Positions 5,635 to 18,019 of a stretch of DNA of 64,000 nt are shown here, piece after piece; position 1 is the stretch's first letter; the number at the start of each line of letters is the position of its first letter. The DNA is taken from positions 118,542 through 182,541 of the forward strand of contig JAFWQA010000061.1 of the NCBI GenBank assembly GCA_017509255.1, written 5' to 3'. The position numbers and the translations under genes are program-made. The DNA comes from Clostridia bacterium. GTDB taxonomy: Bacteria > Bacillota > Clostridia > Christensenellales > Aristaeellaceae. The notes beneath the pieces are model-generated. The model was not told the DNA's origin, ran no database searches, and worked only from the letters and a program-made list of their open reading frames with translations.

Positions 5635-5663
5635 TTGCATTTGCCTCCGTTTCGTGTTAAAAT
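5635..5663 (+). promoter_or_regulatory. Promoter of the split tRNA-Ala(CGC) locus
   Basis: TTGCAT (5635-5640), exactly 17 bases, then TAAAAT (5658-5663), 18 bases before the first tRNA base at 5682. This host promoter now reads through the 5' tRNA remnant into the element and towards the intact tRNA copy at 5792. Confidence 0.65.
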
Positions 5664-5681: not shown

Positions 5682-5703
5682 GGGGCATTGGCACAGTTGG
5701 TAG
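5682..5703 (+). pseudogene. 5' fragment (22 nt) of tRNA-Ala(CGC), split by the element
   Basis: This holds the acceptor 5' strand GGGGCAT, bases 8-9, the D-stem 5' strand GCAC and the D-loop up to GGTAG. Joined to 17492-17542 it gives a perfect 73-nt tRNA-Ala with a fully paired D-stem (GCAC with GTGC), anticodon CGC and the G3-U70 alanine identity pair. The break falls in the D-loop at the shared core GGTAG. Confidence 0.85.
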
Positions 5704-5725
5704 GACGAACTACTCCGACTGCAAC
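5699..5725 (+). other. attL: left junction of the serine-integrase element
   Basis: The core GGTAG (5699-5703) is also found at 17487-17491. It is followed by the arm ACTACTCCGACTGCAAC (5709-5725), whose exact reverse complement lies at 17468-17484 beside the other core copy. Joining the two element ends across the core recreates a symmetric attP of the kind bound by large serine recombinases. The element proper is 5704-17491. Confidence 0.8.
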
Positions 5726-5730
5726 CCCCT

Positions 5731-5777
5731 CCGGTCAAAATTGTGACCAGACCGGATAATGTAAAAAACGGTCACAA
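5731..5777. repeat. Nested inverted repeats between attL and the intact tRNA
   Basis: TTGTGACC (5741-5748) pairs with GGTCACAA (5770-5777), and CCGGTC (5731-5736) pairs with GACCGG (5750-5755). The two pairings are mutually exclusive. Possible roles are a binding site for recombinase or excision factor, or a processing hairpin in the transcript running from the host promoter into the tRNA. I see no convincing promoter here. Confidence 0.4.
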
Positions 5778-5791
5778 AACTTACCAAATTA

Positions 5792-5864
5792 GGGGCATTA
5801 GCACAGTTGGTAGCGCGCGACATTCGCATTGTCGAGGTCAGGGGTTCGACTCCCCTATGCTCCA
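5792..5864 (+). tRNA. tRNA-Ala(CGC), intact copy carried by the element
   Basis: A 73-nt cloverleaf. The acceptor GGGGCAT pairs with ATGCTCC and has the G3-U70 pair that identifies alanine tRNAs. The anticodon stem CGACA/TGTCG encloses loop TTCGCAT (anticodon CGC), the T-arm is AGGGG-TTCGACT-CCCCT, and the discriminator is A at 5864. CCA is not encoded. The D-stem GCAC/GCGC has one A-C mismatch (12:23), whereas the reconstructed host gene pairs perfectly. It lies 88 bases inside the element's left junction and decodes GCG. Confidence 0.93.
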
Positions 5865-5865
5865 C

Positions 5866-5899
5866 AAAACCCTTGAGGCATAACGCTTCAAGGGTTTTT
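5866..5899 (+). terminator. Terminator of tRNA-Ala(CGC)
   Basis: A 10-bp stem AAACCCTTGA/TCAAGGGTTT followed by T residues, immediately after the tRNA. Confidence 0.85.
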
Positions 5900-6183
5900 C
5901 TTTATTCTTTAGCCTGTGAAAAACAGTATGTAAATCCTGCAAAAAAACGTGAATTATCCACAGAATTATATACTCTTTAAAAGAGTGAAAACAGTATAAT
6001 TCTTTCATTAAATCGGAGGCAGAGAAAGGAAGAGCCCGTGGAAAGTATCCATTTTTTTAATTGGAAAAATAACACAGCATATTTCTCAGCTTTGATCCTG
6101 TATTCCTATCTCCAGATCCGGTATCCTGTACACGTACCGAATGACCGGTACATACTGAACGACCGAAACGGAGGAACATCACA
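5900..6183 (+). promoter_or_regulatory. Leftmost cargo promoter with palindromic operator
   Basis: There is no gene in this stretch. TATAAT at 5995-6000 is a good -10 box. The perfect palindrome ACTCTTTAAAAGAGT (5972-5986) overlaps the -35 position, as expected of a repressor operator. The transcript would carry a 5' leader of about 180 bases before the small protein at 6184. Which regulator binds is unknown; the element's WYL and XRE proteins are candidates. Confidence 0.5.
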
Positions 6184-6357
6184 ATGCTGCGTCTGCTTGG
6201 AGCCCTGACTCTTGGAAACATGATCTTTGGCGGCCATCGCTGCCATTGCCATCATCACCATCATGGCGGCTTCCTGGGCAGAGGCCTTCTGCTCGGAATG
6301 CTGCTCGGATTGTTTGTGAGCCGTGCGAATCAGAATCGCGCAGAGGAGGAGGTATAA
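6184..6357 (+). CDS. Small histidine-rich glycine/leucine membrane peptide
   Basis: A 57-residue protein. The start ATG at 6184 follows a CGGAGGAAC ribosome site. Residues 18-27 read HRCHCHHHHH, a dense histidine/cysteine patch. It is followed by a glycine/leucine-rich segment (28-46) long enough to cross the membrane once, then a charged tail ending NRAEEEV. I do not recognise a family. The His/Cys patch could bind metal (inference). It is followed three bases later by another small membrane protein with an overlapping ribosome site, so the two are a translational pair. Confidence 0.6.
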   Translation: MLRLLGALTLGNMIFGGHRCHCHHHHHGGFLGRGLLLGMLLGLFVSRANQNRAEEEV

Positions 6358-6359
6358 CA

Positions 6360-6536
6360 GTGTTCAACATGAACAAGAGTGCTGATCGCCGTCAGGTACT
6401 GACTGTTCTGGGAATTATTCTGGTGCTTTCTTGCATCCCGACTTTACTGGTGCTGTTCTCCCATGTGGCCGGGAGACTGCTTCCCAGTGTCCTGATCGGC
6501 ATCGCCCTGTACTTTGTTTTTCTGCGGAAGAATTAA
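6360..6536 (+). CDS. Small two-helix membrane protein
   Basis: 58 residues from a GTG at 6360. That start is preferred because the purine run GAGGAGGAGG (about 6343-6352) is seven bases upstream; an internal ATG at 6369 is sixteen bases away. After a short basic N-terminus (residues 4-11) two hydrophobic segments follow (about 14-31 and 38-55), ending in RKN. No family is recognised. It is co-translated with the histidine-rich peptide upstream and lies upstream of the first repeat protein. Confidence 0.6.
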   Translation: MFNMNKSADRRQVLTVLGIILVLSCIPTLLVLFSHVAGRLLPSVLIGIALYFVFLRKN

Positions 6537-6638
6537 CCAGCACCCGCAATAACAGAAACGGGGATAGGCTTTCACATATGGGGCAGGACCCATTTCCTGC
6601 CCCGCCTTTTCAATAACGGTGAAAGGAGACGGAATACG

Positions 6639-6968
6639 ATGAAGAAGATCTACAGCTCTCCCTCTCTGTTTGGAGGAATGAACTATTATGATGAGTCCGG
6701 CCATCAGATCGGATATTCGACAGAAAGCCTCTTTGGTGGCAGAAACTTCTATGATGAAAGTGGTCATCATGTAGGCTATTCCACAGAATCGCTGTTCGGT
6801 GGTGAAAACTATTACAGCGATCAGAATGGATACATGGGTTACAGTACAGAAGGTATATTCGGTGGACACACTTATCATGGAGATGGAATGAATGGCTACT
6901 CTGTGGACCGTCTCTTTGGTGGTGAAGTGGGGTTCTTCGATGATGATTCTGATGCTGGTGATTGGTAA
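6639..6968 (+). CDS. Tandem-repeat protein A (five FGG/GYS repeats)
   Basis: A 109-residue soluble acidic protein made almost wholly of five copies of a unit of about 21 residues. The approximate consensus is GYSTESLFGGxNYYDESGHx, starting at residues 4, 25, 46, 67 and 86, with an acidic tail (FFDDDSDAGDW). Each unit has a conserved Phe-Gly-Gly followed by an aromatic pair and a D/N/G-rich turn, which suggests stacked beta-hairpins. There is no signal peptide and no cysteine. AAAGGAG lies ten bases before the ATG. A paralogue with the same unit is at 7370. The family is not one I recognise. See the finding on possible radical SAM substrates. Confidence 0.72.
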   Translation: MKKIYSSPSLFGGMNYYDESGHQIGYSTESLFGGRNFYDESGHHVGYSTESLFGGENYYSDQNGYMGYSTEGIFGGHTYHGDGMNGYSVDRLFGGEVGFFDDDSDAGDW

Positions 6969-6993
6969 ATTAGCATTAACAAATCAAATGATT

Positions 6994-7028
6994 AAGCTGC
7001 AGGGAGTAATATTGCCCTGCAGCTTTTG
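6994..7028 (+). terminator. Terminator after repeat protein A
   Basis: An 11-bp stem AAGCTGCAGGG (6994-7004) with CCCTGCAGCTT (7015-7025), then TTTG. Confidence 0.75.
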
Positions 7029-7369
7029 AACTTTGAGTTCAATGACATTTGCATATCGTCGCTCTACAATAAAACCGTGACAGGGATCGGAAGAAAGAAC
7101 CAGCACCTGTGAACTTACCTTAGAGCAATGGAGAGTTTGCCACCTCCGATGTCGGTTGCTTGTTGATTGACTCCTCCTTTCCAGTTGGCAAGCGACTTCT
7201 AAGGGAACGCATAAGGACTGCTCAACTGCTTCCTTTTCTGCTCCTGCGCAGCCAGTGTGGGGGTTGTCCTTTGGGATGAAAGGGTTGTTGTCTCTGCCGA
7301 CAGCCTTTTCTTCCCACTTTAGCAATGGTGACAGTTTCGTACTGATGAAGAAATACGGGAGGTAGGATC
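7029..7369. other. Non-coding interval (341 bp) between the repeat-protein genes
   Basis: No convincing gene is seen. A minus-strand frame of 113 codons (7325-6984) runs through the terminator of repeat protein A and has no ribosome site or recognisable domain. The stretch is rich in short CT tracts on the plus strand. It could be a long leader for repeat protein B; I see no known riboswitch. Confidence 0.35.
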
Positions 7370-7696
7370 ATGTCTAAGAGGATCTACAGTGTTGACAGCG
7401 TGTTTGGCGGAGCAGACTTTTATGATGAATCCGGCAATCTTGTAGGATACTCCGTTCCTGGCATCTTCGGTGGAGAAGACTATTATGGAACGAACGGAAA
7501 GACTATGTACTCTGTGCCCAGTATCATCAGTGGAGAAGACTTCTATGGCGAGAATGGCTACGTAGGCTCCAGCGTTGATTCGGTTTTTGGCGGGCAGGAT
7601 TTCTATGGCGCGAATGGTACCCGTGGTGCTTCTTTTGATGCTATTCTCGGCGGTGGTCAGGACTTCATTTTCGATGATGATCCTTTCAGCGAGTAA
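7370..7696 (+). CDS. Tandem-repeat protein B (paralogue of A)
   Basis: 108 residues with the same architecture as protein A. There are five units of 19-22 residues, of the type GYSVPGIFGGEDYYGTNGKT, each with S(V/F)xx(I/V)(F/I/L)(G/S)G, then an acidic residue, an aromatic pair and a glycine/asparagine turn, and an acidic end (DDDPFSE). GGGAGGTAG precedes the ATG. It lies 400 bases downstream of A with its own leader. It differs from A in having neutral turn residues (GTNG, GENG, GANG) instead of histidines. The function is unknown; the two may be partners or substrates of the same machinery. Confidence 0.72.
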   Translation: MSKRIYSVDSVFGGADFYDESGNLVGYSVPGIFGGEDYYGTNGKTMYSVPSIISGEDFYGENGYVGSSVDSVFGGQDFYGANGTRGASFDAILGGGQDFIFDDDPFSE

Positions 7697-7728
7697 GATG
7701 AGATACAGGATAGTGGACGGACGTGATA

Positions 7729-8802
7729 TTAATTCTCTGGCTTCGTGTCTAAAGCTTTCCTGTACATACGCAACGCATTTTCATGAAATATTTTGAGGCT
7801 GCTTCGAAGCTGATCAGGGTAGAGCACTTCAGCCTCACCTGCTGTGAATCTCAGGAAGTAACGAAATAATTGCTCGGTGGAGGATCGGAAGTAATACAGA
7901 GCACTTCCATCCTCCAATTTTTCTTTTCTGTCAACTACGGGACGACCGAAATAAATAACTCTGAAATTTTGCTGTCCTCTTTCTGTAAGACGAACGCAGG
8001 TTTCAGTATCTTCATTGATTGCATAGGCAGGGCCATATTTTTTTGTTTGTTCCAAATGCTTCGCTACTTCATCCTCGATATTCCCGGAAGAAAGACAGAA
8101 TGAAGGAGTCTGAATCCTGCACAACCGATAAGATACAGCTTTAGTTTGCTTGGTTTTTTCGTTGTATTCCTGGCCAAGGAGATAATTGAATCTCTCTTCA
8201 GGGCCATGAGTGAGTTCGTATGGAATAACATGATGGATCAGCCCGGGGTTGAAAACGGTGGTAAAGGAAATTTCGCGTTTTGACTTGCATGCACTTTCCA
8301 GAAACTCCACCTTTTCTTTGAAAATAATCCGCTCCCGCTCATAGATGGGCTTTTCACAGTAGCTCATTAGCATGCGTCGAAGATACTGAGATATATAGTC
8401 GCTGCTGCCGATCAGAGACTGATTAATTTCCGTGATGATTTGATCTGTATCATAAGTCGGTTTCAGTGAGACAGAAACAGATTGCTTTCCTTTTCGCTTC
8501 AAAACCTCCGGCTGGATCACCTGATCCATCAGTTGTTCTGTCAGCTCTTCCTTCTGGCGCTTTCCTTTGATGTGATGTGAAATGATTTCCCTTATGGCTT
8601 CGGCTGTTTCATTTATTTCCTGCTTGTACCCATTGTAGTATCCCACGATAAGCAGCGTCAGAAAGCGGTTGAGATTTATGTCTTCACCATTTGCCTTAAA
8701 TATTTCAAACTGTTCTGCGTCGCTTCGGATAACTCTATCCGTCCTCTCAGGGATGTAGAATTTGATTTTTTCCGTGTTATTCAGCCTTTTCGTTTCATTC
8801 AC
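7729..8802 (-). CDS. WYL-domain-like transcriptional regulator
   Basis: 357 residues from a GTG at 8802. The N-terminal third has helical, basic segments such as NLNRFLTLLIVGYYNGY (ribbon-helix-helix or HTH-like). The C-terminal portion from about residue 215 resembles the WYL ligand-binding domain and its C-terminal extension: a strand carrying VSYRLCRI, then TERGQQNFRVIYFGRP, and an ending of the type LYPDQLRSSLK. WYL proteins are common repressors of defence and mobile-element genes and respond to nucleic acids or nucleotides. It is transcribed away from the small membrane gene at 8988. The palindrome at 8858-8872 in its promoter suggests autoregulation. Confidence 0.55.
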   Translation of the reverse strand: MNETKRLNNTEKIKFYIPERTDRVIRSDAEQFEIFKANGEDINLNRFLTLLIVGYYNGYKQEINETAEAIREIISHHIKGKRQKEELTEQLMDQVIQPEVLKRKGKQSVSVSLKPTYDTDQIITEINQSLIGSSDYISQYLRRMLMSYCEKPIYERERIIFKEKVEFLESACKSKREISFTTVFNPGLIHHVIPYELTHGPEERFNYLLGQEYNEKTKQTKAVSYRLCRIQTPSFCLSSGNIEDEVAKHLEQTKKYGPAYAINEDTETCVRLTERGQQNFRVIYFGRPVVDRKEKLEDGSALYYFRSSTEQLFRYFLRFTAGEAEVLYPDQLRSSLKIFHENALRMYRKALDTKPEN

Positions 8803-8851
8803 ATCCTTTCACTTTCCCCCTAAAAGGGGTTTATAAAAATGAAGTTAAGTT

Positions 8852-8872
8852 ATTATACCATATAAAATATGG
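8852..8872 (-). promoter_or_regulatory. Promoter and palindromic operator of the WYL regulator
   Basis: On the minus strand TATAAT (8857-8852) is a -10 box. The perfect palindrome CCATATAAAATATGG (8858-8872) fills the spacer upstream of it. A bound dimer there would block RNA polymerase. Confidence 0.5.
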
Positions 8873-8931
8873 ATAAAAAAGGGGTACATAAAAATAAAGA
8901 ACGGACAATTTTAATGGTGCTTTTCATCCCC

Positions 8932-8937
8932 TATAAT
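8932..8937 (+). promoter_or_regulatory. -10 box for the small membrane protein and XRE gene
   Basis: TATAAT at 8932-8937, 50 bases upstream of the start at 8988. No clear -35 box is at 17-base spacing. Confidence 0.35.
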
Positions 8938-8987
8938 GAGTGCCGTACCAAGAAACACTACGCGGACCTTAGAAGGAGGATTGTTGA

Positions 8988-9173
8988 ATGAAGGAGTTGA
9001 TCCCGGGCATCGTCTCTCGGATTCCTGCTCTGATGGAGCACACCACTCTGAGCGTCAGTCTCTGTGGTTGGCCTGCTGCTGTTGCCATCGGGCTGGTTTG
9101 CGGGACGGTTGTCGCCATCACGGCGATTGTGACCTCGAATGCCTCTGATCAGACGAGCGCTTCGCCCGCCTGA
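8988..9173 (+). CDS. Small membrane protein, single hydrophobic helix
   Basis: 61 residues. AGAAGGAGG lies directly upstream with eight-base spacing, so translation is well supported. One hydrophobic segment of about 25 residues (about 25-49, VSLCGWPAAVAIGLVC and onward) is followed by a short Ser/Thr tail. No family is recognised. An inverted repeat CCTCTGATCAG/CTGATCAGAGG (9142-9180) spans its stop codon without a T tract. The next gene is the XRE regulator. Its small size and regulatory context are compatible with a type I toxin-like peptide, but nothing proves this. Confidence 0.55.
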   Translation: MKELIPGIVSRIPALMEHTTLSVSLCGWPAAVAIGLVCGTVVAITAIVTSNASDQTSASPA

Positions 9174-9180
9174 TCAGAGG
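9142..9180 (+). repeat. Inverted repeat over the stop codon of the 61-residue gene
   Basis: 11-bp arms (9142-9152 and 9170-9180) without a following T-run. It could be a weak terminator, an mRNA-stabilising hairpin or an operator for the following XRE protein. Confidence 0.4.
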
Positions 9181-9235
9181 TAATGACATCGGTTCCTTTA
9201 GTGATTGTTATGAACCGTTGAGAAGGAGTATTTCC

Positions 9236-9559
9236 ATGAAGGTCAAGATGTTCCCCGTTATCAATATGGCCGCTACTGGCGCTAACATTTTGAGGTTGAG
9301 GAAGGAACGCAATCTTACGGTAGCTGACCTGCAGGAGTATTTCGGGTTTGATGCTCCCCAGGCTATATATAAGTGGCAGCGTGGCGAAACCATTCCCAGC
9401 ACTGACAACCTTCTTGCTTTGGGGTACTTGTTGGGTGTTTCCATGGATGACATTTTGGTTACTGACTCGAATGGTGAAAACAGTGAAGAGCCGCAGGACG
9501 ATTCCTGCGGCGATTGTTTTTTACAGCCTTCTTTTTCTGCTGATTATCTAAGCAAATAA
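9236..9559 (+). CDS. XRE-family HTH regulator
   Basis: 107 residues from the ATG at 9236, preceded by GAGAAGGAG. The Cro/C1-type helix-turn-helix spans about residues 10-68 (ANILRLRKERNLTVADLQEY, then APQAIYKWQRGETIP and a closing LLALGYLLGVSMDDIL). The C-terminal 35 residues are acidic and serine-rich. A transcription terminator (9491-9522) lies inside the last codons. It probably regulates element genes; the operator is unknown. Confidence 0.75.
   Translation: MKVKMFPVINMAATGANILRLRKERNLTVADLQEYFGFDAPQAIYKWQRGETIPSTDNLLALGYLLGVSMDDILVTDSNGENSEEPQDDSCGDCFLQPSFSADYLSK
9491..9522 (+). terminator. Terminator embedded in the end of the XRE gene
   Basis: CCGCAGG (9491-9497) pairs with CCTGCGG (9504-9510), and TTTTTT follows at 9517-9522. 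The stop codon comes later, at 9557-9559, so full-length mRNA requires read-through or the hairpin acts as an attenuator. Confidence 0.55.
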
Positions 9560-9568
9560 AAATCTGGA

Positions 9569-9961
9569 TCAGATCTGGTAAATCTGGTAATCTGCCGGAT
9601 CTGAAGAAATCGGGATCCCTTGAGTCTCTGATAAAATTCTTTTTTCCAACTGTACCAGTTTCTGCAAAGGCGTAGAAAGACGCTCCTGCAGGAGGCCAAC
9701 CAAGTTCTTCTCCTTTGCGTTCAGCAAGATAGTAATTGTGGCTTTTCCTTCGCAGGTAACATGATCACTGTATACGGCTCCATACTCTTTTATTGATCCG
9801 TAACCATCTTCAACATCAAGTGCAAAGAGAGGATCGTGGTTTTCGTCCTCAATTTGAAGCAGTGCGGGTTTGTTATTCTTCAGGTCAGTGATCTCTCGAG
9901 GCGTAAGCGAGGAAACAATCTGAAAGAACTTCGCGAGCTGGAAGTGCTGGTCACGAAGGCA
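9569..9961 (-). pseudogene. 5'-truncated remnant of a hypothetical gene
   Basis: The minus-strand frame ending at TGA 9571-9569 encodes about 130 codons of protein-like sequence (such as FQLAKFFQIVSSL, LFALDVEDGYGSIKEYGAVY and GKATITILLNAKEKN) but begins right after an in-frame TAA (9964-9962). No ATG, GTG or TTG start with a ribosome site is available. It looks like the C-terminal part of a conserved unknown protein whose front was removed by rearrangement. It overlaps head-to-head with the plus-strand gene at 9836. Confidence 0.4.
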
Positions 9962-10228
9962 TTATCTGAGACAACCGGTGAGATCACCATCTTGCAAATC
10001 CCGGATATTGAGGAAAAAATTCTGGCGCTGGAAGAAGAAATCCGACACATTATGGATACTGATCCTTATCAATATAAGTTCCTTCTGATTGATAAAAAGG
10101 AAGTTGCCGCAAGGAAAGAAGAGCTTAATGAGGAATTAAAGAAGTATCAGGAGTACAGCCAGCAACTGGATGCCATGCTCACCGAAATGTTGCCGGAAGG
10201 AGTGTTTATGATATGGGATCTGAACTGA
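9836..10228 (+). CDS. Coiled-coil hypothetical protein, start uncertain
   Basis: The convincing part begins near residue 29 (position about 9920). It is a charged, strongly helical protein with sections such as EEKILALEEEIRHIMD and KKEVAARKEELNEELKKYQ, typical of a short coiled coil. The first 28 residues are antisense to the truncated minus-strand gene and have no ribosome site, so this gene may also have lost its front in the same rearrangement. It overlaps the HIRAN gene by 16 bases, which implies translational coupling. No family is recognised. Confidence 0.45.
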   Translation: MVFVLNLKQCGFVILQVSDLSRRKRGNNLKELRELEVLVTKALSETTGEITILQIPDIEEKILALEEEIRHIMDTDPYQYKFLLIDKKEVAARKEELNEELKKYQEYSQQLDAMLTEMLPEGVFMIWDLN

Positions 10229-10611
10229 TCAACACGAATAATTCGTCAGCAGTATCTGTTCTTCAGCAGCATAATCTGGGCGATGTCCTTCAGCCTATGA
10301 TACGTGAAATCCACCTTTTCGATTCTTATGTTGCCGGAACAACCCATCTGAAAGATCCGTCTGTGCTGCAGGAAATTAAGGTAAACGACTCGCTAACCTT
10401 ACAGAGGGAAGACAACCGTTATGACAAAAATGCGATCTTGATCCTGACGGCGGACAAGAAAAAGATCGGATATGTTCCAGAGAAGGATAATATCGTTTTT
10501 GCCAGACTCATGGACGCGGGCAAAATACTGAAGGCCAAGATTACTGATATTAAGCCAAAAGATAATTACTTCACATTGATCAATATCGGCATTTATCTTG
10601 TAGACTTATAA
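10213..10611 (+). CDS. Stand-alone HIRAN-domain protein
   Basis: 132 residues. Residues about 30-115 match the HIRAN domain: HLFDSYVAGTTHLKDP, then a basic/acidic LQREDNRYDKNAILIL and KKKIGYVPEKDNIVFARLMD. In Rad5/HLTF this domain binds DNA 3' ends, and in bacteria it occurs alone or fused to nucleases and helicases. GGAAGGAG at about 10196-10203 serves its ATG. It overlaps the coiled-coil gene upstream. The role in the element is unknown; binding of DNA or damaged ends is the family expectation. Confidence 0.72.
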   Translation: MGSELINTNNSSAVSVLQQHNLGDVLQPMIREIHLFDSYVAGTTHLKDPSVLQEIKVNDSLTLQREDNRYDKNAILILTADKKKIGYVPEKDNIVFARLMDAGKILKAKITDIKPKDNYFTLINIGIYLVDL

Positions 10612-10894
10612 TGCCTATAACTGGGATTTCCTCTATTATTGATGCCGATGATTAATCAACTTAGTGCTATTCAGCCACAACGCTCTGCGTTGTGTTCTGG
10701 GGGATTGGGGGCATGGGCCACCAACAAGCAGATTGTGCAAGGAGATATCTCCTTGCCCTGCTTGCGAGTTTTGTTTGAACTTAATGATCAAAGGGGTTAA
10801 TCCTGGTTTTTGATCAGATTGGATTCGTTACAATGGTTTTAACCGTTATCATGTTAAAATGAACTGACACAGGGAGAAACGGGGATCAAGAGAA
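10612..10894. other. Intergenic leader (283 bp) of the zinc-ribbon/radical SAM operon
   Basis: No gene is seen. Two short imperfect inverted repeats (around 10677-10698 and 10736-10765) may be the end of the HIRAN transcript. TGTTAAAAT near 10852-10860 resembles an extended -10 box for the operon, but the -35 is unclear. Confidence 0.3.
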
Positions 10895-12166
10895 ATGAAA
10901 GCCTGTAAGTTTTGTGAAACACGGATGCCTGATGATGCTCAACATTGTCCGTCATGTGGATCAAATGTGTTTCTGCACGTCTGTGAAAACTGCAGTCAAT
11001 TGTTCGATAGTGGGTTCTGTCCTAATTGCGGAGTAAAGGCCGGGCAGAAGAAGAAAATCTGCCCTGAATGTCATTCCGCATATTTTTCAAATGCATGCCC
11101 CAATTGCGGATACACACCGTCCAGAAAGCCTGTTGTTCAGGAGGTTGTTCATAAGCATGTTTATGTTGAACCAGAACAACGTCCTCAGCCGACTCCCACA
11201 CAAGCAAGACAAGTAAAGAAAAAAGGAAAAGGCTGTGGCTGTCTGATATGGATTCTTATTTTTCTTATTGTTGCTGGTTTGATCGGAAATCTGACTTCAT
11301 CAAAAAGGAGCTCAACCAGTTCTACGAGAACAACCACAAGTACTAAGAAAACAACTACTGTCACAAAAGACCCGAATGTGACTACGGCACCAACGGCCAC
11401 ACCCGAACCAGCAATTATTTCAGCACAGGAAAAAGTAAATAAATACTTCGAGAACGCAGATGCGGACGAAATCGCAGCAGTACAAAAATCAGAGTCATCA
11501 CTTTATAGGTATGAGGCACAGCAAAGCGGAAATGTTCTCAACGTTCGCCGCTCCTGGGCAGATGACAGAGGGATGGTCGGAACCAGCAAATATGAACCAG
11601 ATTATATTGGAGCACTAGGCTTTGTAGCTGTCTACGATAATCAGAACATGGAGAAGAATGCCAACTTTGGAACTACTCCATGGAAAGTGCCGGTTTATCA
11701 AAAAGACAAACAATTCTGGCAAGAGACGGGCTCCATTGATCATAAAACTGAAGTTGTGGTCATCGGACAAGAATTGGAATTGCCGAAGAGATCATACAGT
11801 ACTTCCCGGTGCAGCGGCTATCTCCAAGTGATCAGAATGGATACCGGAGAAGCATGCTGGCTGAACGTTGAAAATTTCGTGACATCTGCATATTGGGAAA
11901 AGAGCCTAACCGGCGCAATGGAAAAGGGATACTGTATCGCGTCTTTTAAGCAAGTCAGCGATTACTATCCGGTGACCAAAGGAAAAGAAAAGACAGAGCT
12001 CGAAGACGGAACGCTTGTACTTCTTCCGATGAAGTCAAAGAACTATGCCAGCAGTCCAGACAAAACAAACAATCCAATTGTTGGTATAGTTTTTAAAGAA
12101 TGGAAATATGGTTTTGGCGGCGTGAATGTGTTTTTCAACGAAGCGGATCTGACGTTGGTTTACTGA
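10895..12166 (+). CDS. Membrane-anchored protein with N-terminal zinc ribbons and extracytoplasmic domain
   Basis: 423 residues. Residues 4-75 contain a run of CxxC pairs (CKFC, CPSC, CENC, CPNC, CPEC, CPNC) forming about three zinc ribbons on the cytoplasmic side. A Pro/Gln/Lys linker follows, then one transmembrane helix at about 115-137, then a Ser/Thr/Lys-rich stalk (about 138-165). The external domain of about 250 residues has Tyr/Trp-rich strands that resemble SH3-like surface domains. It is the first gene of an operon with the radical SAM gene (25-base gap). Zinc-ribbon plus one membrane helix is common in Firmicute envelope proteins; this exact combination is not one I can name. Confidence 0.68.
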   Translation: MKACKFCETRMPDDAQHCPSCGSNVFLHVCENCSQLFDSGFCPNCGVKAGQKKKICPECHSAYFSNACPNCGYTPSRKPVVQEVVHKHVYVEPEQRPQPTPTQARQVKKKGKGCGCLIWILIFLIVAGLIGNLTSSKRSSTSSTRTTTSTKKTTTVTKDPNVTTAPTATPEPAIISAQEKVNKYFENADADEIAAVQKSESSLYRYEAQQSGNVLNVRRSWADDRGMVGTSKYEPDYIGALGFVAVYDNQNMEKNANFGTTPWKVPVYQKDKQFWQETGSIDHKTEVVVIGQELELPKRSYSTSRCSGYLQVIRMDTGEACWLNVENFVTSAYWEKSLTGAMEKGYCIASFKQVSDYYPVTKGKEKTELEDGTLVLLPMKSKNYASSPDKTNNPIVGIVFKEWKYGFGGVNVFFNEADLTLVY

Positions 12167-12190
12167 AATGGATATATTGCGAGGAAGAAA

Positions 12191-13273
12191 ATGATTAGTT
12201 CAGTTAAAGAAAGGGATATGAAGGCGCTGGCTGATTATCAGGACTCACTGATGAGGAACCCGAGACTGCGATTCATTTTCTTTGAATTGACAGACAAGTG
12301 CAATCTGAAATGCCTGCATTGCGGAAGCAACTGCGATTTAAAGAATTACACATTTTTGACTTTGGACGCTGTGAAGAACACACTCCAATCAATTGCCAGA
12401 GAGTGTGATCCCTGTGAAGTGATGGTATGCCTGACCGGAGGAGAACCAATGCTTCATCCGCAGTTGTCTGAGACTATTGCCTTGGCGCGAAAAATAGGTT
12501 TCCCGGTTGGTATCACAACTAACGGTACGTTAATTGATGATGTAAATGCAAAAAAGCTATCGCAAAGCGGAATTAATACTGTCGCAGTAAGCGTAGACGG
12601 TACTAAAGAGATCCACGATAGATTTCGCTGTAGTCCGGGAAGCTTTAATAAAGCAATGAACGGCATAATGGCTCTGAAGCAAAATGGAATAGAACCTCAA
12701 GTGATGACAGTTGCAAGCAAAGTCAATCTTCATGATCTTCCTGCATTGGGGAGTTTTCTCCAAAGCAAAGACATCTATTCATGGCGAATTACAAATATCG
12801 ATCCCATAGGCCGAGCACAGATTAATAATGATCTTCTTCTCTCCACAGAAGAGATTCATGAGTTGCTGTCATTTATCAGGAACATGCGATACAGTCAGGA
12901 TGTTAATATGGAAGTGACATATGGCTGTTCTCATTTTCTGACATACGATTACGAACGTGAAGTTCGTGATTTTTATTTCCAATGTGGTGCCGGAATACTT
13001 GTTGGAAGTGTAATGGCCAACGGAGATATAGGAGCTTGTCTGGATATTGAACGAAGGAAAGATCTTGTCCAGGGGAATATCTATAAAGACGATTTTATGA
13101 CGATTTGGAATAATCGTTTTGAAGTTTTCAGAGTCAATCGAGCAGAAAATAGTCGTCAGTGTGCTGGCTGTGTTTACAAGAGTGTTTGCCGAGGCGATTC
13201 TGCGCACACATGGGACTACGAACTAGATGAGCCCAGATATTGTTTTGCAGGAGGGGAAAAGCTATTATGTTGA
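12191..13273 (+). CDS. Radical SAM/SPASM-domain enzyme
   Basis: 360 residues. CNLKCLHC provides the CxxxCxxC cluster ligands C37, C41 and C44, followed by the SAM-binding LTGGEP motif. The C-terminal third has a SPASM-type set of cysteines (C265, C283, C324, C327, C333 and two near the end) for auxiliary iron-sulfur clusters. Enzymes of this architecture modify ribosomal peptides or proteins (PqqE, sactipeptide and cyclophane synthases) or act as anaerobic maturases. GCGAGGAAG lies before the ATG. It sits between two zinc-ribbon genes and overlaps the next by seven bases. The substrate is not evident; the tandem-repeat proteins A and B in the same element are one candidate (inference only). 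Confidence 0.85.
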   Translation: MISSVKERDMKALADYQDSLMRNPRLRFIFFELTDKCNLKCLHCGSNCDLKNYTFLTLDAVKNTLQSIARECDPCEVMVCLTGGEPMLHPQLSETIALARKIGFPVGITTNGTLIDDVNAKKLSQSGINTVAVSVDGTKEIHDRFRCSPGSFNKAMNGIMALKQNGIEPQVMTVASKVNLHDLPALGSFLQSKDIYSWRITNIDPIGRAQINNDLLLSTEEIHELLSFIRNMRYSQDVNMEVTYGCSHFLTYDYEREVRDFYFQCGAGILVGSVMANGDIGACLDIERRKDLVQGNIYKDDFMTIWNNRFEVFRVNRAENSRQCAGCVYKSVCRGDSAHTWDYELDEPRYCFAGGEKLLC

Positions 13274-14481
13274 ATCTGTTCAAAGATGAAAACAAAGGGA
13301 ACTATTGTGTGCTGGTAAATAAACAGGCTTTGTATGAATCTGCAAAAGTACAAGACATACAGAACGTCATGCTTGTAACAGGGCAGAAACTCAGTACGAC
13401 AGAATTAATGCATATAAAAGAGTGTTGGAGTAATGTGGTTATTCTTTTTTACCTGGACAACAATGATCATGCCAACGACATAATTCAGGAGCAATTGGAG
13501 AAAGTGGGAATATGGGTAATTGACGATTCGTTCCCGAATCCCTCCGTCATGCTCGAGGAACCCATTGATTCTTTGGAAGATTTTATCTCAGCATGCTTAA
13601 TTAAAAGTCAAATTGAAAGCGAATTGATTCGTGATGGGCGTATCAAAGATAGAGACTATACTGGCAGATGCGGCAATTGCCATGAACCAATGGGTGAAGC
13701 AGATAAGTACTGCAAGTTCTGTGGGACGAAACGCGGGCAAGGACGTTTCCTGCCGTTTGATAATCCCATGTATTGTGTATATGGTCCGCCAATAAAAACA
13801 AAGTACAAGTGCAAAAATTGCGGTACTTTATGGCTGACATGTGCCCTAGGCGGCGGTAAGAAGGCATCTTTCTGTCCGTTATGTGGGGAAAAGAAGGTTG
13901 ATCTGGTAGAACGCAAGTATATTGATTTTTCATCCTATGTTTGCACAGAGGAACCGTATGATCCTGATAATCCACCTACGTTGGTTACAGAAGGCCAGCT
14001 TAACAAGCTTCTCGCACAGCGTAATGGAACGGCGGATAACAGAGGCAACAAAGCATTGAAGAAAATGCGACAAGCTGGATTTGACGTTCCGGACAAAATC
14101 GATGAAGAAAACAGTGATCCTAAAAAACGTTATCCTCGAACAGAGGCAGAAGCTGATCAACTAACCCTTGTGGAGAAAATCTTAGCGCTTAATGGACGAG
14201 ACCAAAATGCATATCCTGATGTGGTCTGTGATAAATGCGGGTCAAAACATATAGCAGCATTTTCCTATCAGTTGTTGGGAAACCATAAAGTCGTTGATGA
14301 ATGTATGATTTCCGAAACTAACAGTCAAGATCCTCTTATACTACGCACCAGCTACTTGATTGGTGAAAGAGATTTACGTGAAGAACGACGAGAAGCTTTT
14401 ATTTGTCTGCAATGTGGACATGAATTTGGCAAACTGACTTTTTCCAGAAAATCGAAAAAACTACTTGGGATTGACGATTAA
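13267..14481 (+). CDS. Multi-zinc-ribbon protein of unknown function
   Basis: 404 residues from the ATG at 13267, with GCAGGAGGGG upstream inside the radical SAM gene. The N-terminal domain of about 120 residues lacks recognisable motifs. It is followed by zinc ribbons CGNCHEPMGEADKYCKFCG, then CKNCGTLW and FCPLCG. A charged helical middle follows, then a last ribbon made of CDKCGSKH and CLQCGHEFG. There is no membrane segment. Tight overlap with the radical SAM gene points to a shared function. It might be a partner presenting substrate, or a nucleic-acid binder; neither is proven. Confidence 0.65.
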   Translation: MLNLFKDENKGNYCVLVNKQALYESAKVQDIQNVMLVTGQKLSTTELMHIKECWSNVVILFYLDNNDHANDIIQEQLEKVGIWVIDDSFPNPSVMLEEPIDSLEDFISACLIKSQIESELIRDGRIKDRDYTGRCGNCHEPMGEADKYCKFCGTKRGQGRFLPFDNPMYCVYGPPIKTKYKCKNCGTLWLTCALGGGKKASFCPLCGEKKVDLVERKYIDFSSYVCTEEPYDPDNPPTLVTEGQLNKLLAQRNGTADNRGNKALKKMRQAGFDVPDKIDEENSDPKKRYPRTEAEADQLTLVEKILALNGRDQNAYPDVVCDKCGSKHIAAFSYQLLGNHKVVDECMISETNSQDPLILRTSYLIGERDLREERREAFICLQCGHEFGKLTFSRKSKKLLGIDD

Positions 14482-14561
14482 TACTACATGTGACAGCCTT
14501 GATTTGTTTTTCGATGCCGATCAATATGATAATCAACCATATTTCAGTGGAGGTGCTTATC

Positions 14562-14792
14562 ATGATTAGCAATTTAGAGAAAGACATGTCGCATGAAGAG
14601 TCCCAGGCAAAAGTCAGTAATGAACAGAATCGTTGCTACAGGGTACAAGATCTTGAAGCTATTCTTGGTATTGGGCGAGCAAGTGTGTATAAACTACTCA
14701 AACGAAAAGAGTTTAGATGGATCAAGATAGGGGATGGCTATCGAATTCCGAGAAAAAGCTTTGACGCTTGGCTTGAAGCACAAGAGGAGTGA
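14562..14792 (+). CDS. Excisionase/MerR-like small HTH protein
   Basis: 76 residues from the ATG at 14562, after GTGGAGGTG. It contains the winged-helix fold typical of element excisionases (HTH_17): YRVQDLEAILGIGRASVYKL followed by a basic wing and RIPRKSFDAWLEAQ. Near an integrase such proteins act as recombination directionality factors or local regulators. It is 700-950 bases from the serine recombinase operon. Confidence 0.72.
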   Translation: MISNLEKDMSHEESQAKVSNEQNRCYRVQDLEAILGIGRASVYKLLKRKEFRWIKIGDGYRIPRKSFDAWLEAQEE

Positions 14793-14817
14793 TATTATCA
14801 CTATATAGCTTACCAAT

Positions 14818-15300
14818 TTAGAGCAGGTTCTTTTTCAGCATAATGATCTTTTCTGTTCTGTATTGTTCCCAAAAACCACACTGAAGAAAAAGCCCAATCC
14901 CAGGATTGTCTACGGCAATGCTGTCGTATAATTCTGGGATGTTTTCTTTGGCAGCAGCATCACAAAGCAGTTGAAGGCCGGCTTTACCATATCCTTGATT
15001 TCGTCTTTTTGCAGATATGATAATGTCTGCAAGATAGATATTATGATCATTATCGTAGTGATAAGCCGCTTCACCAACAAACGATCTGCTTTTCCCTGTA
15101 GTTATGTACCGATAGTAACATTGATGGGGATTTTCAATCCAACAATCGTACCAATCAGGCCATTTTTCGCGCGGGAATGGGATTGTTCCACCCCACGCGT
15201 TGTTATAGCTCATTGTTTCTGGATCTGCTAATAAAGATTCCCGAAACCAGAGATCCTCAATCTTCGGTTTATAGAAATACACATCTATTCTGTTATTCAT
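14818..15300 (-). CDS. GNAT-family N-acetyltransferase
   Basis: 160 residues from the ATG at 15300. The acetyl-CoA loop RRNQGYG is followed by helix KAGLQLLCDAA, and the C-terminus has the LFLQCGFWEQYRTEKIIM strand, typical of GNAT folds. The family transfers acetyl groups to amines of small molecules or proteins. The frame extends ten codons further to a TTG, but the ATG is the more natural start. It is opposite in direction to its neighbours and could be an independent cargo gene such as a resistance-type acetyltransferase. Confidence 0.72.
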   Translation of the reverse strand: MNNRIDVYFYKPKIEDLWFRESLLADPETMSYNNAWGGTIPFPREKWPDWYDCWIENPHQCYYRYITTGKSRSFVGEAAYHYDNDHNIYLADIIISAKRRNQGYGKAGLQLLCDAAAKENIPELYDSIAVDNPGIGLFLQCGFWEQYRTEKIIMLKKNLL

Positions 15301-15493
15301 TTCATCTATCTCGAGGCTTGCTAACAGCAAACACGCTTCCTAACATTCTTTGGAGCAAATGCCCAATGTCAAAATAACGCATTGTAAAATCAGATACAAC
15401 CCCTGAACTAAGTTTTTTTATATTTTCACGCCTTAGATTAGGGGGTTGCTTTAAGGGGCTTCTACCGAGAGGAAGAGACTCTCCGGAAGGAGC

Positions 15494-15736
15494 ATGAAGA
15501 TGAAAGCAACGACAGCCTTGATCTCGAATGAGCATCAGAATACTATGACGATGGTGGAAAAAGCCGCGAACCTTGACAACGAAATAAGCGCAACGCCGAA
15601 TGTGCAGGTGTCCCGTAACATCATCACGCCAAATGGTTGTCGCTTGACTTTGGTGTTTCCCCCAAAAGGTAGAAAAGGCGTAAGGGAGGAAATCGCCGAG
15701 ATCCTGGTGTCAACCATTATGGATATGGAGGAATGA
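15494..15736 (+). CDS. Small protein co-transcribed with the serine recombinase
   Basis: 80 residues. GGAAGGAGC lies immediately upstream. The C-terminal 40 residues (VSRNIITPNGCRLTLVFPPK and onward, ending in a helix EEIAEILVSTIMDMEE) resemble small genes that precede recombinase genes in Tn4451-like elements (TnpW type). That match is weak. It overlaps the annotated recombinase start region, so the two are translationally coupled. A role as a recombination accessory factor is inferred from position. Confidence 0.6.
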   Translation: MKMKATTALISNEHQNTMTMVEKAANLDNEISATPNVQVSRNIITPNGCRLTLVFPPKGRKGVREEIAEILVSTIMDMEE

Positions 15737-15741
15737 GTGAA

Positions 15742-17358
15742 ATGAAACGGGTATTATGCCTGTACAGAGTATCAACACTAAAACAGGTCGACAAACAAGA
15801 TGATATTCCTATGCAGCGTCGTGAGTGTATGGACTTCATCGCAAGAATGGACGGATGGGAATTCTACGATGAGCGCATGGAAAAAGGTGTGTCGGGTTAT
15901 AAGGTCTCTGCGAATGATCGGGACATTATTGTTGAAATCCGGGAACTAGCAGAGAAAAAAAGATTTGATGTTTTGCTGGTATTTATGTTTGACCGCTTGG
16001 GACGTAAAGAAGACGAAACGCCTTTCCTTGTGAAATGGTTTATTGATCATGGAATCGAGGTTTGGAGTACGCGAGAAGGTCAACAGAAACTGGACAATCA
16101 GGTTGATCGTCTGATGAACTACATGCGCTTCTGGGCAGCAAGCGGTGAAAGTGAAAAGACATCTATCCGTGTTAAGGCGGCTCATTCACAAATGACCCAG
16201 GATGGAATCTGGCGTGGCGGCACATGCCCATACGGATATAAACTGATTCATAATGGGCGCATTGGGAAAAAGAACCGTCCGCTCTATGATTTGATGATCG
16301 ACGAAGAAACTGCTCCTATTGTGCAAGAGATATTTGATCTGATAGTCAGACAGGGAATGGGAACTCTTCGTGCAGCAAATTATCTGAACGAAAAATATCC
16401 AGATCCTAAAAAGGTCTGGACGGCTCAAACGATTCGTAACATGATAAGAAATCCAATTTATACCGGAAGATTTCACATGAATGAGATTCTTTCCGAGCCA
16501 AACGAAAGTCTTAGGTTAGTAAGTGATGAGGACGTGGAGTTCGGGAAAAATGCTATTGCAAAACGCATTCCACGGAAATATATCAGCAAGCTTGAGGCTG
16601 AAGCACTGGACGTTCCTGAGGGATCTACAAAGGCTTCCGTATTTGGAGCAACTATGTTATCCGGTATTTTATACTGCGGACACTGTGGGAAAAAGCTGGT
16701 TGGAGGATACAATACTCATTATCGCGCTGGATGGACTGATCACAGACCGATTTATAGATGCTATAACGGTGCCGTAAAGGCAAAAGAATGTGATGGTCCC
16801 ACCACTTATTCCGGAGTAAAAGTAGATGAAGCGGTATATTCTGCTGTAATGCACTATTTCAATTCGGTGGGATCAGTTACAGGTCGAGTCTGGAAGGAAA
16901 AAGCAAGAAAGCAGTTTAAGGATGGAGCAAAAGCACATTTGAGAAAAGCCCAAAGCCAACTGGACCGTCTTATGAAAGAACAGGAAGGATTAAAAAAAGA
17001 ATTGATTCTTGTTGTAACGGGAGAAAGCGCTTTTGATAGGGAGCTTCTTCGACAGATGATAGATGAAAATCAAGAAGCACAAAAGAAAACCCAAGAAGCC
17101 ATTCGCGCAGCTGAATATGACTTTGATAAAGAAGAGAACCGCATAAAGTATATGGAATCAATGATTAACAACGTCAAAGACTGGGCAGAGAAGTTTGATT
17201 TTGTTTCACAGGATGTTCAGAAGATGATTATGGCCAGGCTGATTGAACGTATTGATATATATCGAGGATATGAAATGCGGATTCAATTCTATATCGATGA
17301 AGAAGAATTTGATGGCATAAAAGAGGATAACGATAGTACAGTGGCGAATGTATCGTAA
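15742..17358 (+). CDS. Large serine recombinase (element integrase)
   Basis: 538 residues from the ATG at 15742, which has GGAGG ten bases upstream. The ATG at 15733 is only one base from that site and is less likely. The resolvase domain has the catalytic serine S11 in YRVSTLKQ and the arginine motif FDRLGRKED. The recombinase domain follows (WTAQTIRNMIRNPIYTG). The zinc-ribbon domain starts with YCGHCGKK (C312, C315), then comes a coiled coil and a basic end. It breaks and joins DNA at attP and attB via a serine-DNA link. The att site lies 110 bases downstream, the usual arrangement. Confidence 0.93.
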   Translation: MKRVLCLYRVSTLKQVDKQDDIPMQRRECMDFIARMDGWEFYDERMEKGVSGYKVSANDRDIIVEIRELAEKKRFDVLLVFMFDRLGRKEDETPFLVKWFIDHGIEVWSTREGQQKLDNQVDRLMNYMRFWAASGESEKTSIRVKAAHSQMTQDGIWRGGTCPYGYKLIHNGRIGKKNRPLYDLMIDEETAPIVQEIFDLIVRQGMGTLRAANYLNEKYPDPKKVWTAQTIRNMIRNPIYTGRFHMNEILSEPNESLRLVSDEDVEFGKNAIAKRIPRKYISKLEAEALDVPEGSTKASVFGATMLSGILYCGHCGKKLVGGYNTHYRAGWTDHRPIYRCYNGAVKAKECDGPTTYSGVKVDEAVYSAVMHYFNSVGSVTGRVWKEKARKQFKDGAKAHLRKAQSQLDRLMKEQEGLKKELILVVTGESAFDRELLRQMIDENQEAQKKTQEAIRAAEYDFDKEENRIKYMESMINNVKDWAEKFDFVSQDVQKMIMARLIERIDIYRGYEMRIQFYIDEEEFDGIKEDNDSTVANVS

Positions 17359-17386
17359 GGATTCCATCAGAGAATCCTTTAATTTT
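17357..17386 (+). terminator. Terminator of the recombinase gene
   Basis: AAGGATTC (17357-17364) pairs with GAATCCTT (17372-17379), followed by TAATTTT. Confidence 0.7.
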
Positions 17387-17467
17387 CAGTCATATGGGTA
17401 TTAGCACAGATGAACGAACGGCTATTGCATTAATAGTCGAATGTGGTGGAGAAAATGACCATGACGC

Positions 17468-17491
17468 GTTGCAGTCGGAGTAGTCCGGTAG
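17468..17491 (+). other. attR: right junction of the element
   Basis: The arm GTTGCAGTCGGAGTAGT (17468-17484) is the exact inverse of the attL arm at 5709-5725, followed by CC and the core GGTAG (17487-17491). Host tRNA sequence resumes at 17492. Confidence 0.8.
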
Positions 17492-17542
17492 TGCGCTACA
17501 TTCGCATTGTAGAGGCCAGGGGTTCGACTCCCCTATGCTCCA
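17492..17542 (+). pseudogene. 3' fragment (51 nt) of the split tRNA-Ala(CGC)
   Basis: This holds the rest of the D-stem (GTGC with the core G), anticodon arm CTACA-TTCGCAT-TGTAG, T-arm and acceptor ATGCTCC-A. It has no promoter or 5' half of its own. It completes the 22-nt piece at 5682-5703 exactly (73 nt in total). Confidence 0.85.
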
Positions 17543-17577
17543 CAAAACAAACCACCCTTTATGGGTGGTTTTGTTTT
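17517..17577 (+). repeat. 61-bp direct repeat, copy 1 (tRNA 3' end plus terminator)
   Basis: It covers the T-arm and acceptor 3' end of the split tRNA and the following hairpin (AAAACAAACCACCC with GGGTGGTTTTG). It is identical to 17741-17801. Confidence 0.85.
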
Positions 17578-17767
17578 GTGGAATAATAGCAGGAATCTGA
17601 CCCCTGGCCGAATACAATGCGAAGCATTGGAGAGGGCGAACCGCCGACGACTGCCGGTGGCAGGAGTTTCGTCGGCGGTGAGGTCAATCGAAAGGGAGCA
17701 AGCTCCCCTGTGGGGAGTTGCGACCATTGAGATTGCGGATCAGGGGTTCGACTCCCCTATGCTCCAC
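17543..17767 (+). mobile_element. tRNA-3'-end-flanked cassette 1 (period 224 bp)
   Basis: The interval between two copies of the tRNA-Ala 3' end carries no gene and many short GC-rich inverted repeats. These include GCCGACGACTGCC/GGCAG with CGTCGGC near 17640-17690, and AGCTCCCC/GGGGAG. Shared words such as GCATTGGAGAGGG and GCGAC(C/T)ATTG relate it to cassettes at 17768-18019 and 51606-51868. It may be a miniature tRNA-targeting element or a structured RNA unit. Confidence 0.5.
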
Positions 17768-17801: not shown

Positions 17802-18019
17802 TTGTGTTCGCGCAAGGGGAAGTCGTCCCCTTGACTCTTCAATGCACATTGTGCATTGGAGAGGGGCGGAGCCGAAGCGCCGCCAGTGGCGGATGAAGCG
17901 AGGCGGAAGCCTGGTGAGCAAAGGAGTCTGCCAAACGGCAGAGAAGGCAGGCGACTATTGCGAACCTGACCGAGCGAACGAAGTGAAGCGAGACGGGGTT
18001 CGACTCCCCTATGCTCCAC
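17768..18019 (+). mobile_element. tRNA-3'-end-flanked cassette 2 (period 252 bp)
   Basis: It runs from the second tRNA end to a third copy of the 25-bp end GGGGTTCGACTCCCCTATGC... at 17995-18019. The last part (about 17953-17994, containing GCGACTATTGCGAACCTGAC) is nearly the same as the end of the cassette after tRNA-Ala(GGC) at 51780-51841. The T-arm copy matches the local tRNA (CCCCT type), not the other locus (CCGCT type). It has no coding potential on either strand beyond chance frames. Confidence 0.5.

Follow-up and report, generated by a model that had tools for sequence, protein, structure and literature searches.

Probable replacement of a split tRNA-Ala(CGC) gene by a promoterless, re-targetable spare on a serine-integrase element

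What becomes of a host tRNA gene when a mobile element breaks it within the D-loop? The question is raised by a stretch of 64,000 nucleotides (nt) from a Clostridia bacterium of the family Aristaeellaceae, order Christensenellales (GenBank assembly GCA_017509255.1, contig JAFWQA010000061.1, positions 118,542 to 182,541; hereafter the window), in which a tRNA-Ala(CGC) gene lies in two pieces at the ends of an integrative element of 11,788 bp (5704-17491, + strand), delimited by its junctions and by an empty and an occupied site in relatives. We conclude that an element with a serine integrase very probably splits the tRNA gene in its D-loop and supplies a whole, promoterless spare that can be targeted again. 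The window holds one case of a recurring family that stacks, and related integrases act likewise at other tRNA genes, points absent from the original prediction, which was made from the letters of the window.

The split tRNA gene, its spare and the element ends

When rejoined, the 22 nt at 5682-5703 and the 51 nt at 17492-17542 give a 73-nt tRNA-Ala(CGC), which is called by ARAGORN, adopts a full cloverleaf in RNAfold and is 99% identical across 73 nt to the intact genes of five relatives, so that the two pieces indeed form one gene, as originally predicted. The left piece (+ strand) is the 5' fragment of the host gene (nt 1-22) and the bacterial half of the attachment site attL. The junction repeat is GGTAG, with copies at 5699-5703 and 17487-17491 (+ strand), and because it is common to both junctions the right piece is properly nt 18-73 of the tRNA, from 17487 (attR, 17487-17542 on the + strand, i.e., the GGTAG copy followed by nt 23-73); the insert measures 11,788 bp whichever base of GGTAG hosts the crossover. 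The terminator-like hairpin of the original host tRNA, an inverted repeat at 17544-17576 (+ strand), is stranded 3' of the displaced fragment.

An intact spare tRNA-Ala(CGC) was placed by ARAGORN at 5792-5864 (+ strand), 88 nt inward of the left junction, where the prediction had it. It is followed immediately by an intrinsic terminator (5866-5898, + strand; a 14-pair stem and a T run), which, like the hairpin at 17544-17576, is an addition to the earlier description. The spare differs from the broken gene at 5/73 positions, including a paired change in the anticodon stem at 28/42, with G3:U70 present in both; the element therefore carries a complete gene of its own instead of mending the target by identity, which bears out the prediction. 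A copy identical to the window's spare at another locus (L065; L and G numbers denote loci and genomes) scored 61 bits against the Rfam tRNA model, and the spare retains the target sequence GGGGCATTAGCACAGTTGGTAG.

The ends of the element form a 17/17 inverted repeat (5709-5725 and 17468-17484) that is symmetric about AG, at positions 6-22 outward from this dinucleotide. Counted outward from AG, the ends agree at 20/25 positions, a match reached by none of 200,000 random window pairs (the best was 18). The left arm of attP extends over 5704-5728 and the right arm over 17468-17484 (both + strand). From the symmetry of the arms about AG, the crossover dinucleotide would be AG at 5702-5703, i.e., tRNA nt 21-22, within the D-loop, where the break had been proposed.

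For an arm consensus, 46 left and 29 right rows were found, six of which, three on either side, were dropped as tRNA pieces that were ordinary, intact or cut in another way, and after merging of duplicates 52 different arms remained. Their half-site consensus is RACGAA, a variable stretch and roughly CTACTTCACCC, with C at half-site position 24 in 50 of the 52 arms. The left half-site of the tRNA, read in the same way, has CCCC at positions 17-20, about 5 bp closer to the core than the C-run of attP. An attP-attB offset of this kind is typical for large serine integrases, and it suggests that the integrase probably reads the GGGG of the acceptor stem and cuts at A21-G22 in the D-loop. Both marks of a large serine integrase, a core common to the two sites (GGTAG) and an imperfectly palindromic attP, are thus present. 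Between the integrase stop and the right arm, 17396-17419 reads GGGTATTAGCACAGATG and then AACGAAC, which looks like a decayed 5' tRNA fragment with an attP left arm, perhaps an older left end within the element.

The integrase itself (15733-17358, + strand; 541 amino acids, aa) ends about 130 bp short of the right junction and contains the Pfam domains Resolvase, Recombinase and Zn_ribbon_recom (PF00239, PF07508, PF13408, all over cut-off), in accordance with the original assignment to the serine integrases; it also matches phrog_95 integrase (E 1.2e-74) and is placed by the tree described below. The motif YRVS with Ser14, which we take to be the catalytic serine, is invariant in an alignment of four integrases, and among solved structures SPbeta YokA and the TP901-1 integrase are nearest in sequence. 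An identity with the Ccr recombinases of staphylococcal cassette chromosome mec was rejected, as the scores against the NCBIfam equivalogs were far under cut-off (CcrC 58.5 bits vs 900, CcrA 41 vs 700). No tyrosine-recombinase family was found among ten element proteins scanned in Pfam, small open reading frames (ORFs) being only partly scanned, and we infer that the integrase of the window would itself perform the integration.

The empty and the occupied state could be compared in two sister species, G023 and G001, in a chromosomal neighbourhood other than that of the window. In G023, a single contig of 3.56 Mb, the tRNA-Ala(CGC) is uninterrupted. The left flank in G001 is 95-98% identical to that of G023 and leads to a 22-nt fragment and a spare, with about 260 nt of older leader-like sequence between flank and fragment where G023 has about 20. 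On another contig of G001, an integrase and a tRNA fragment run into the right flank; the homology to G023 begins there exactly at tRNA nt 18 (G023 position 9215 = 9198 + 17), and the flank is then 91% identical over 4.7 kb.

Two further copies of the tRNA 3' end lie to the right of the element at 17740-17766 and 17995-18018, with GC-rich repeats between them; the former is accompanied by a terminator copy. Inserts in the variable region of tRNA-Ala pieces were also seen at L071, L080, L085 and L089, possibly a repetitive extragenic palindrome (REP)-like repeat that uses this region.

A stacking family and its relatives at other tRNA genes

With the four-integrase alignment as query, 23 loci were found in the species genomes and one in IMG/VR (two query rows, L067 and L078, lie on the contigs of L105 and L117, which are both counted among the 24). 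In all 17 testable loci, two of which are query loci, the integrase adjoins tRNA-Ala(CGC) sequence: 16 of the 24 integrases have behind them a 3' fragment of tRNA-Ala(CGC) that begins at nt 18-21 (at nt 28 in L116), and that of L121 adjoins an intact tRNA-Ala(CGC) with a 22-nt 5' tRNA-Ala fragment ahead of it. The other seven loci are cut by contig ends (four) or are truncated remnants (three). Among the 23 loci of species genomes, the host record names a ruminant in nine, and six more have RUG genome names, which stand for the rumen; one locus is from Pullichristensenella and one from Coriobacteriales. In L121, L205 and L206 the layout is another one, the integrase facing the spare at the left end and not lying at attR.

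The 5'-junction pattern was detected at 30 places in 19 of the 45 genomes of the genus, and in G038, from another family of the order, an intact tRNA lies 63 nt downstream of a 5' fragment. The source genome of the window itself has an additional 5' fragment with a spare on contig 52 and, on contig 1, an additional integrase (55% identical) that is accompanied by a 3' fragment. Across the order, the RACGA type occurs in only 8/396 genomes, all from the window's family (34 sampled); a looser pattern that matched 97/396 genomes was discarded, as most matches were ordinary tRNAs reading AGAGCGA. The integrase of L075, beside a tRNA fragment, was excluded from the family (30% identity, other orientation). 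tRNA-Ala 3' fragments that start at nt 11 and have a different upstream motif were observed in L066 (4185-4246, - strand) and L068 (12440-12502, + strand); another element type may use the same tRNA-Ala at another point.

At 11 loci, at least two 5' fragments succeed one another, and the row ends at an intact tRNA or where the contig stops; G009 has four. L071 and L073 do not enter this count, since one of the two 'fragments' in each is either an intact tRNA or a tRNA piece that contains an insert. Among the ladder loci, L075 and L090 are nearly identical copies found in different genomes, and L095 and L159 both belong to G048, as separate contigs. Behind each stacked 5' fragment come the left arm of an attP and a leader, of which there are several classes. 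Particular leaders tend to precede particular tRNA alleles: in 5/6 cases class delta stands before the GGGGCTATAGC allele, a pairing that is expected if each element lands in the spare of the preceding one. The contig of RUG11052 combines a single intact tRNA with two 5' fragments and two integrases (L118 and L116, with 4.1 kb of unread sequence between them), each integrase being accompanied by a 3' piece, and the inner arms pair at 20/24 positions.

Integrases related to that of the window were also found at other tRNA genes. A class-wide search (391 genomes, E 1e-60) matched 14 genomes including the window's own, with 15 integrase places outside the latter. At seven of these (L179-L185) the integrase is followed by a tRNA-Asn(GTT) 3' fragment that begins in the D-loop, and in L186 and L188 it faces tRNA-Pro(TGG) and tRNA-Ala(CGC), respectively, each with a 22-23-nt 5' fragment ahead. 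In G447, G481 and G695, a 22-nt tRNA-Asn fragment, a spacer of 73-74 nt and an intact tRNA-Asn follow one another; because these left ends and the integrases are on separate contigs, we infer the joins, and the arms match at 20/23 positions in G447. No full-length tRNA-Asn other than the spare was found in G481 (99% complete) and G695 (94%), whereas G447 has two and G621 only pieces, at a contig end; four of the partial matches were checked and proved to be other tRNAs. In G601, the 5' fragment, spare and 3' fragment of tRNA-Pro(TGG) lie on one contig with the fragments 38.5 kb apart, the arms match at 19/25 positions, and the other two proline tRNAs found have the anticodons CGG and GGG.

The integrase tree (34 rows, 31 of them different, midpoint root) groups the sequences by target: the 17 Ala rows are set off by a branch with support 100/100 and the 8 Asn rows by one with 99/99, while the three integrases that face their spare group at 93/96, under the tool's own bar. 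Outside metagenomes, the closed conjugative plasmid pRUMAL02 of R. albus 7 (NC_014825.1 near 106000, L240) has a related integrase with a 3' fragment of tRNA-Asn behind it that starts AGAGCA. Related integrases also occur on three phage scaffolds of human-faecal origin, which either stop close to the integrase or lack a tRNA piece next to it.

Promoter, proposed mechanism and rival explanations

The putative host promoter (+ strand, 5635-5663), as read from the sequence, with a score of 9.5 for the host upstream region, consists of a -35 box TTGCAT at 5635-5640, a spacer of 17 nt and an extended -10 TGT-TAAAAT ending at 5663, i.e., TTGCAT-17-TAAAAT with TG one base ahead of the -10. The 88-nt leader between the 5' fragment and the spare (5704-5791, + strand) reaches a promoter score of 8 and has no + strand site in a strict scan. 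When upstream regions were compared (160 nt each for outer regions, 30-225 nt for leaders), an extended -10 (TGnTAnAnT) was present in 20 of the 27 outer host regions and in none of the 34 different element leaders; a score of at least 9.5 was reached by 20/27 outer regions (2.4% of first-order Markov resamples) vs 1/34 leaders (2.2%). The leader as promoter source was therefore rejected, and since the motif lies upstream of the host tRNA and not in the leaders, the spare most likely relies on the promoter of the host. The original claim that a host promoter at 5635 can drive the spare is thus supported by the motif and by the leaders without it, but not by the strict scan, which does not list 5635. 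Leaders such as 5704-5791 contain recurring hairpin-like motifs of at least two types, one of which is also seen between promoter and tRNA in some empty hosts; no Rfam family was found for leaders (5 loci, E up to 1).

We propose that the large serine integrase would recombine a palindromic attP with the D-loop of the tRNA gene, the crossover falling at the AG of GGTAG (nt 21-22). Integration would leave a 22-nt 5' piece with the host promoter and displace the 3' piece by 11.8 kb. Next to attP the element would carry a complete tRNA-Ala(CGC) with its own terminator and no recognisable promoter, so that integration would set the spare about 90 nt 3' of the stranded 5' piece, where the host promoter could read through remnant and leader. 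The spare would then be transcribed and processed, and the integration would be reversible. The whole gene would be replaced by the element's allele, as opposed to the identity-based repair of targets elsewhere. Since the spare keeps the D-loop target it would be the landing site for the next element, and repeated rounds would produce a row of units, each of 22-nt fragment and leader, that ends in a single intact tRNA, the 3' pieces being lined up at the opposite side. Related integrases would act likewise at tRNA-Asn(GTT) and tRNA-Pro(TGG). We consider it likely that these integrases form a clade specialised on tRNA D-loops (Ala-CGC, Asn-GTT, Pro-TGG), whose promoterless spares are switched on by integration and become the host's only copy and the next landing site, the promoter alone staying with the host as the tRNA passes from one element to the next.

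Several observations weigh against this proposal. An empty site for the window's own flanks was not found in relatives: their SIR2 loci have a tRNA-Ala(CGC) within about 1.5 kb only in the own genome and in one tRNA-only match, and the genes of the window's flanks did not recur beside the relatives' tRNA-Ala. The uninterrupted gene that the original prediction expected in a related genome is therefore established for the sister species, but not for the window's own flanks, and proof of the empty and occupied states rests on G023 and G001. The spare, when folded alone in RNAfold, has a lowest-energy structure that is not a cloverleaf. Nearly all loci come from metagenome assemblies, and because many contigs end in tRNA repeats, few elements have both ends on one contig (the window, G601 and RUG11052). 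In RUG11052 the outer arms pair at 15/24 positions, no better than the cross pairs (16 and 18), so that the nesting order there is unproved by the arms. Four genomes of the same genus in one or two contigs (G002, G023, G041 and G049) have no 5' junction, and the opposite end of the element was not found for L121 and L188 (L206). L067 (= L105, G018) and L098 (G053) have integrase sequence, 3' fragments and an intact tRNA and lack a 5' fragment, which a deletion between 22-nt repeats would account for. In the class-wide set, L193 has a near-complete tRNA-Asn instead of a fragment, and five of the 15 places (L187, L189, L190, L191 and L194) have no tRNA piece in the DNA examined. Finally, pRUMAL02 was rejected as a full example from an isolate, as it is a right-end remnant with no tRNA-Asn 5' half in the plasmid.

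Some of these points could be read as signs of an ordinary tRNA-targeted island, in which the tRNA at 5792 is the restored host gene and the pieces are incidental duplications left when tRNA copies recombined homologously. Further repeats of the tRNA 3' end lie at 17741 and 17995, tRNA pieces with variable-region inserts occur around these loci, and L067 and L098 have an intact tRNA without a 5' fragment. Against this, the arms are palindromic about one dinucleotide and the integrases lie beside tRNA-Ala(CGC) sequence wherever this could be tested, and homologous recombination would yield neither a palindromic attP nor the same design at tRNA-Asn and tRNA-Pro, which makes such an origin very improbable. 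Least credible of all is an assembly artefact, by which tRNA repeats collapsed or mis-joined in metagenome assemblies would give rise to the fragment-spare-fragment pattern. The contigs that end in tRNA repeats and the four genus genomes without a 5' junction would fit it; the same structure is, however, seen across many assemblies that differ in study, host and tRNA identity, the repeats are set apart by leaders and arms that are unique, and the closed plasmid of the isolate R. albus shows an integrase followed by a tRNA-Asn 3' fragment.

The integration might also be real and the spare be driven by an unrecognised promoter of another type, or be silent, GCG codons being read by other alanine tRNAs. 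Since wobble allows a UGC anticodon to pair with GCG, tRNA-Ala(CGC) may be dispensable; the leaders contain recurring hairpins, and the host promoter of the window is weak in the strict scan. On the other side stand the lack of an extended -10 in all 34 leaders and the tRNA-Asn spare, which, as the only full-length tRNA-Asn found in two genomes, should be expressed at least there. We regard this explanation as unlikely, though less so than the two before it, and prefer a spare that is re-targetable and read from the host promoter.

Known systems and further content of the element

The comparisons that follow refer to passages of the cited papers rather than to whole texts. Elements at tRNA genes mostly have tyrosine integrases that act near the anticodon or the 3' end, with the gene mended by identity, and serine integrases in tRNA genes are described there as rare or not known. 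In Islander islands (PMC4383910), tyrosine integrases act at the anticodon loop, the T loop or the T/acceptor junction and a gene fragment is supplied; as in our case the tRNA is split, a fragment is displaced, island sequence restores a functional gene and tandem arrays occur, but here the enzyme is a serine integrase, the site is the D-loop, and a whole gene with 5/73 differences is brought in. The rare cases of serine integration in tRNA genes, the actinomycete integrative and conjugative elements (AICEs) of Mycobacterium in tRNA-Leu and phage phiRSM1 in the 3' end of tRNA-Ser (PMC3218068), share with ours a serine recombinase at a tRNA gene; phiRSM1, however, uses the 3' end, and in the passages concerned the site of the AICEs within tRNA-Leu is not specified and neither D-loop nor whole spare is described for phiRSM1 or the AICEs. 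The ssrA islands of Dehalococcoides with the CcrB-like DsiB (PMC3146451) are likewise tandem islands of a serine recombinase at a structural RNA, although their target is the T-loop of the transfer-messenger RNA, whose 20-bp 3' end is repeated, and a whole replacement gene is not described in the relevant passages.

A whole replacement tRNA (tRNA-Leu) for one broken by integration is known from Rhizobium phages related to vTRX32-1 (PMC8631192); it lacks the 12-bp att motif, by which, as the authors suggest, super-integration is prevented, whereas the spare described here keeps its target and is hit again, as the ladders in relatives show. The text of that paper does not name the type of integrase (no occurrence of the word). 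Archaeal pTN3-like integrases (PMC8371274) resemble the present one in an attB in the 5' half of the tRNA gene; they belong, however, to the tyrosine family, and the restored tRNA is expressed from the integrase promoter and not from that of the host. In the main text of a 2022 survey of large serine recombinases (PMC10083194), a term search found no mention of tRNA. Separate precedents thus exist for a whole spare, for a serine recombinase in a tRNA gene and for tandem stacking, and no precedent for D-loop targeting combined with a still-targetable spare was found in the passages of the literature searched.

This family would represent a different solution, i.e., an early break, replacement of the whole gene, a borrowed host promoter and a replacement left as the next target. 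A tRNA gene can in this way become element-encoded, in the Asn case apparently the only one, so that bacteria may come to rely on tRNA genes supplied by their parasites, and a route for the horizontal replacement of tRNA alleles may be opened. Detection methods that seek tyrosine integrases at tRNA genes would probably miss these elements. As a set with defined attP and tRNA D-loop targets, the integrases should be useful for work on serine-integrase specificity and possibly as integration tools.

Two further genes of the element may take part in recombination. An ORF of 80 aa at 15494-15736 (+ strand), which overlaps the integrase start and has no family match, is a candidate recombination directionality factor; similar ORFs lie just 5' of the integrase in 16 other distinct loci (17/43 rows, L067 and L105 being one locus). 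An excisionase-like helix-turn-helix protein (14490-14792, + strand) matches Pfam HTH_17 and, over cut-off, the NCBIfam 'excise' domain; no relatives of it were found by tblastn in the 43 loci. A Cro/C1-type helix-turn-helix regulator (Pfam HTH_3) is encoded at 9218-9559 (+ strand).

The cargo comprises a WYL-like regulator (7729-8802, - strand; PADLOC WYL E 1.9e-9, no Pfam match), a HIRAN-domain protein (10213-10611, + strand; Pfam HIRAN 1.6e-14, PADLOC PDC-M03B 9.7e-15), a double zinc-ribbon protein (10895-12166, + strand; Pfam DZR) and a radical SAM/SPASM protein (12191-13273, + strand; Pfam, with TIGR04133 as best NCBIfam match at 269 bits, under the cut-off of 425). The last also matched pVip of PADLOC (6e-25), and viperin is not claimed because TIGR04133 scores far higher. 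A GNAT protein is encoded as well. Against PHROGs, ten element proteins gave no match to capsid, terminase or tail families, small ORFs being only partly scanned; ten were likewise compared with Pfam and gave no relaxase or conjugation genes, in a scan that covered part of the ORFs, one of them without a Pfam match. Two small ORFs at 6639-7696 (109 and 108 aa) had no PADLOC or NCBIfam match, nor the first of them a PHROG match; both are built from repeats like GYSTESLFGG..FYDESG. Outside the element, a second serine recombinase at 21474-22972 is split across two frames (158 and 363 aa) and is probably a broken older element beside the tRNA hot spot.

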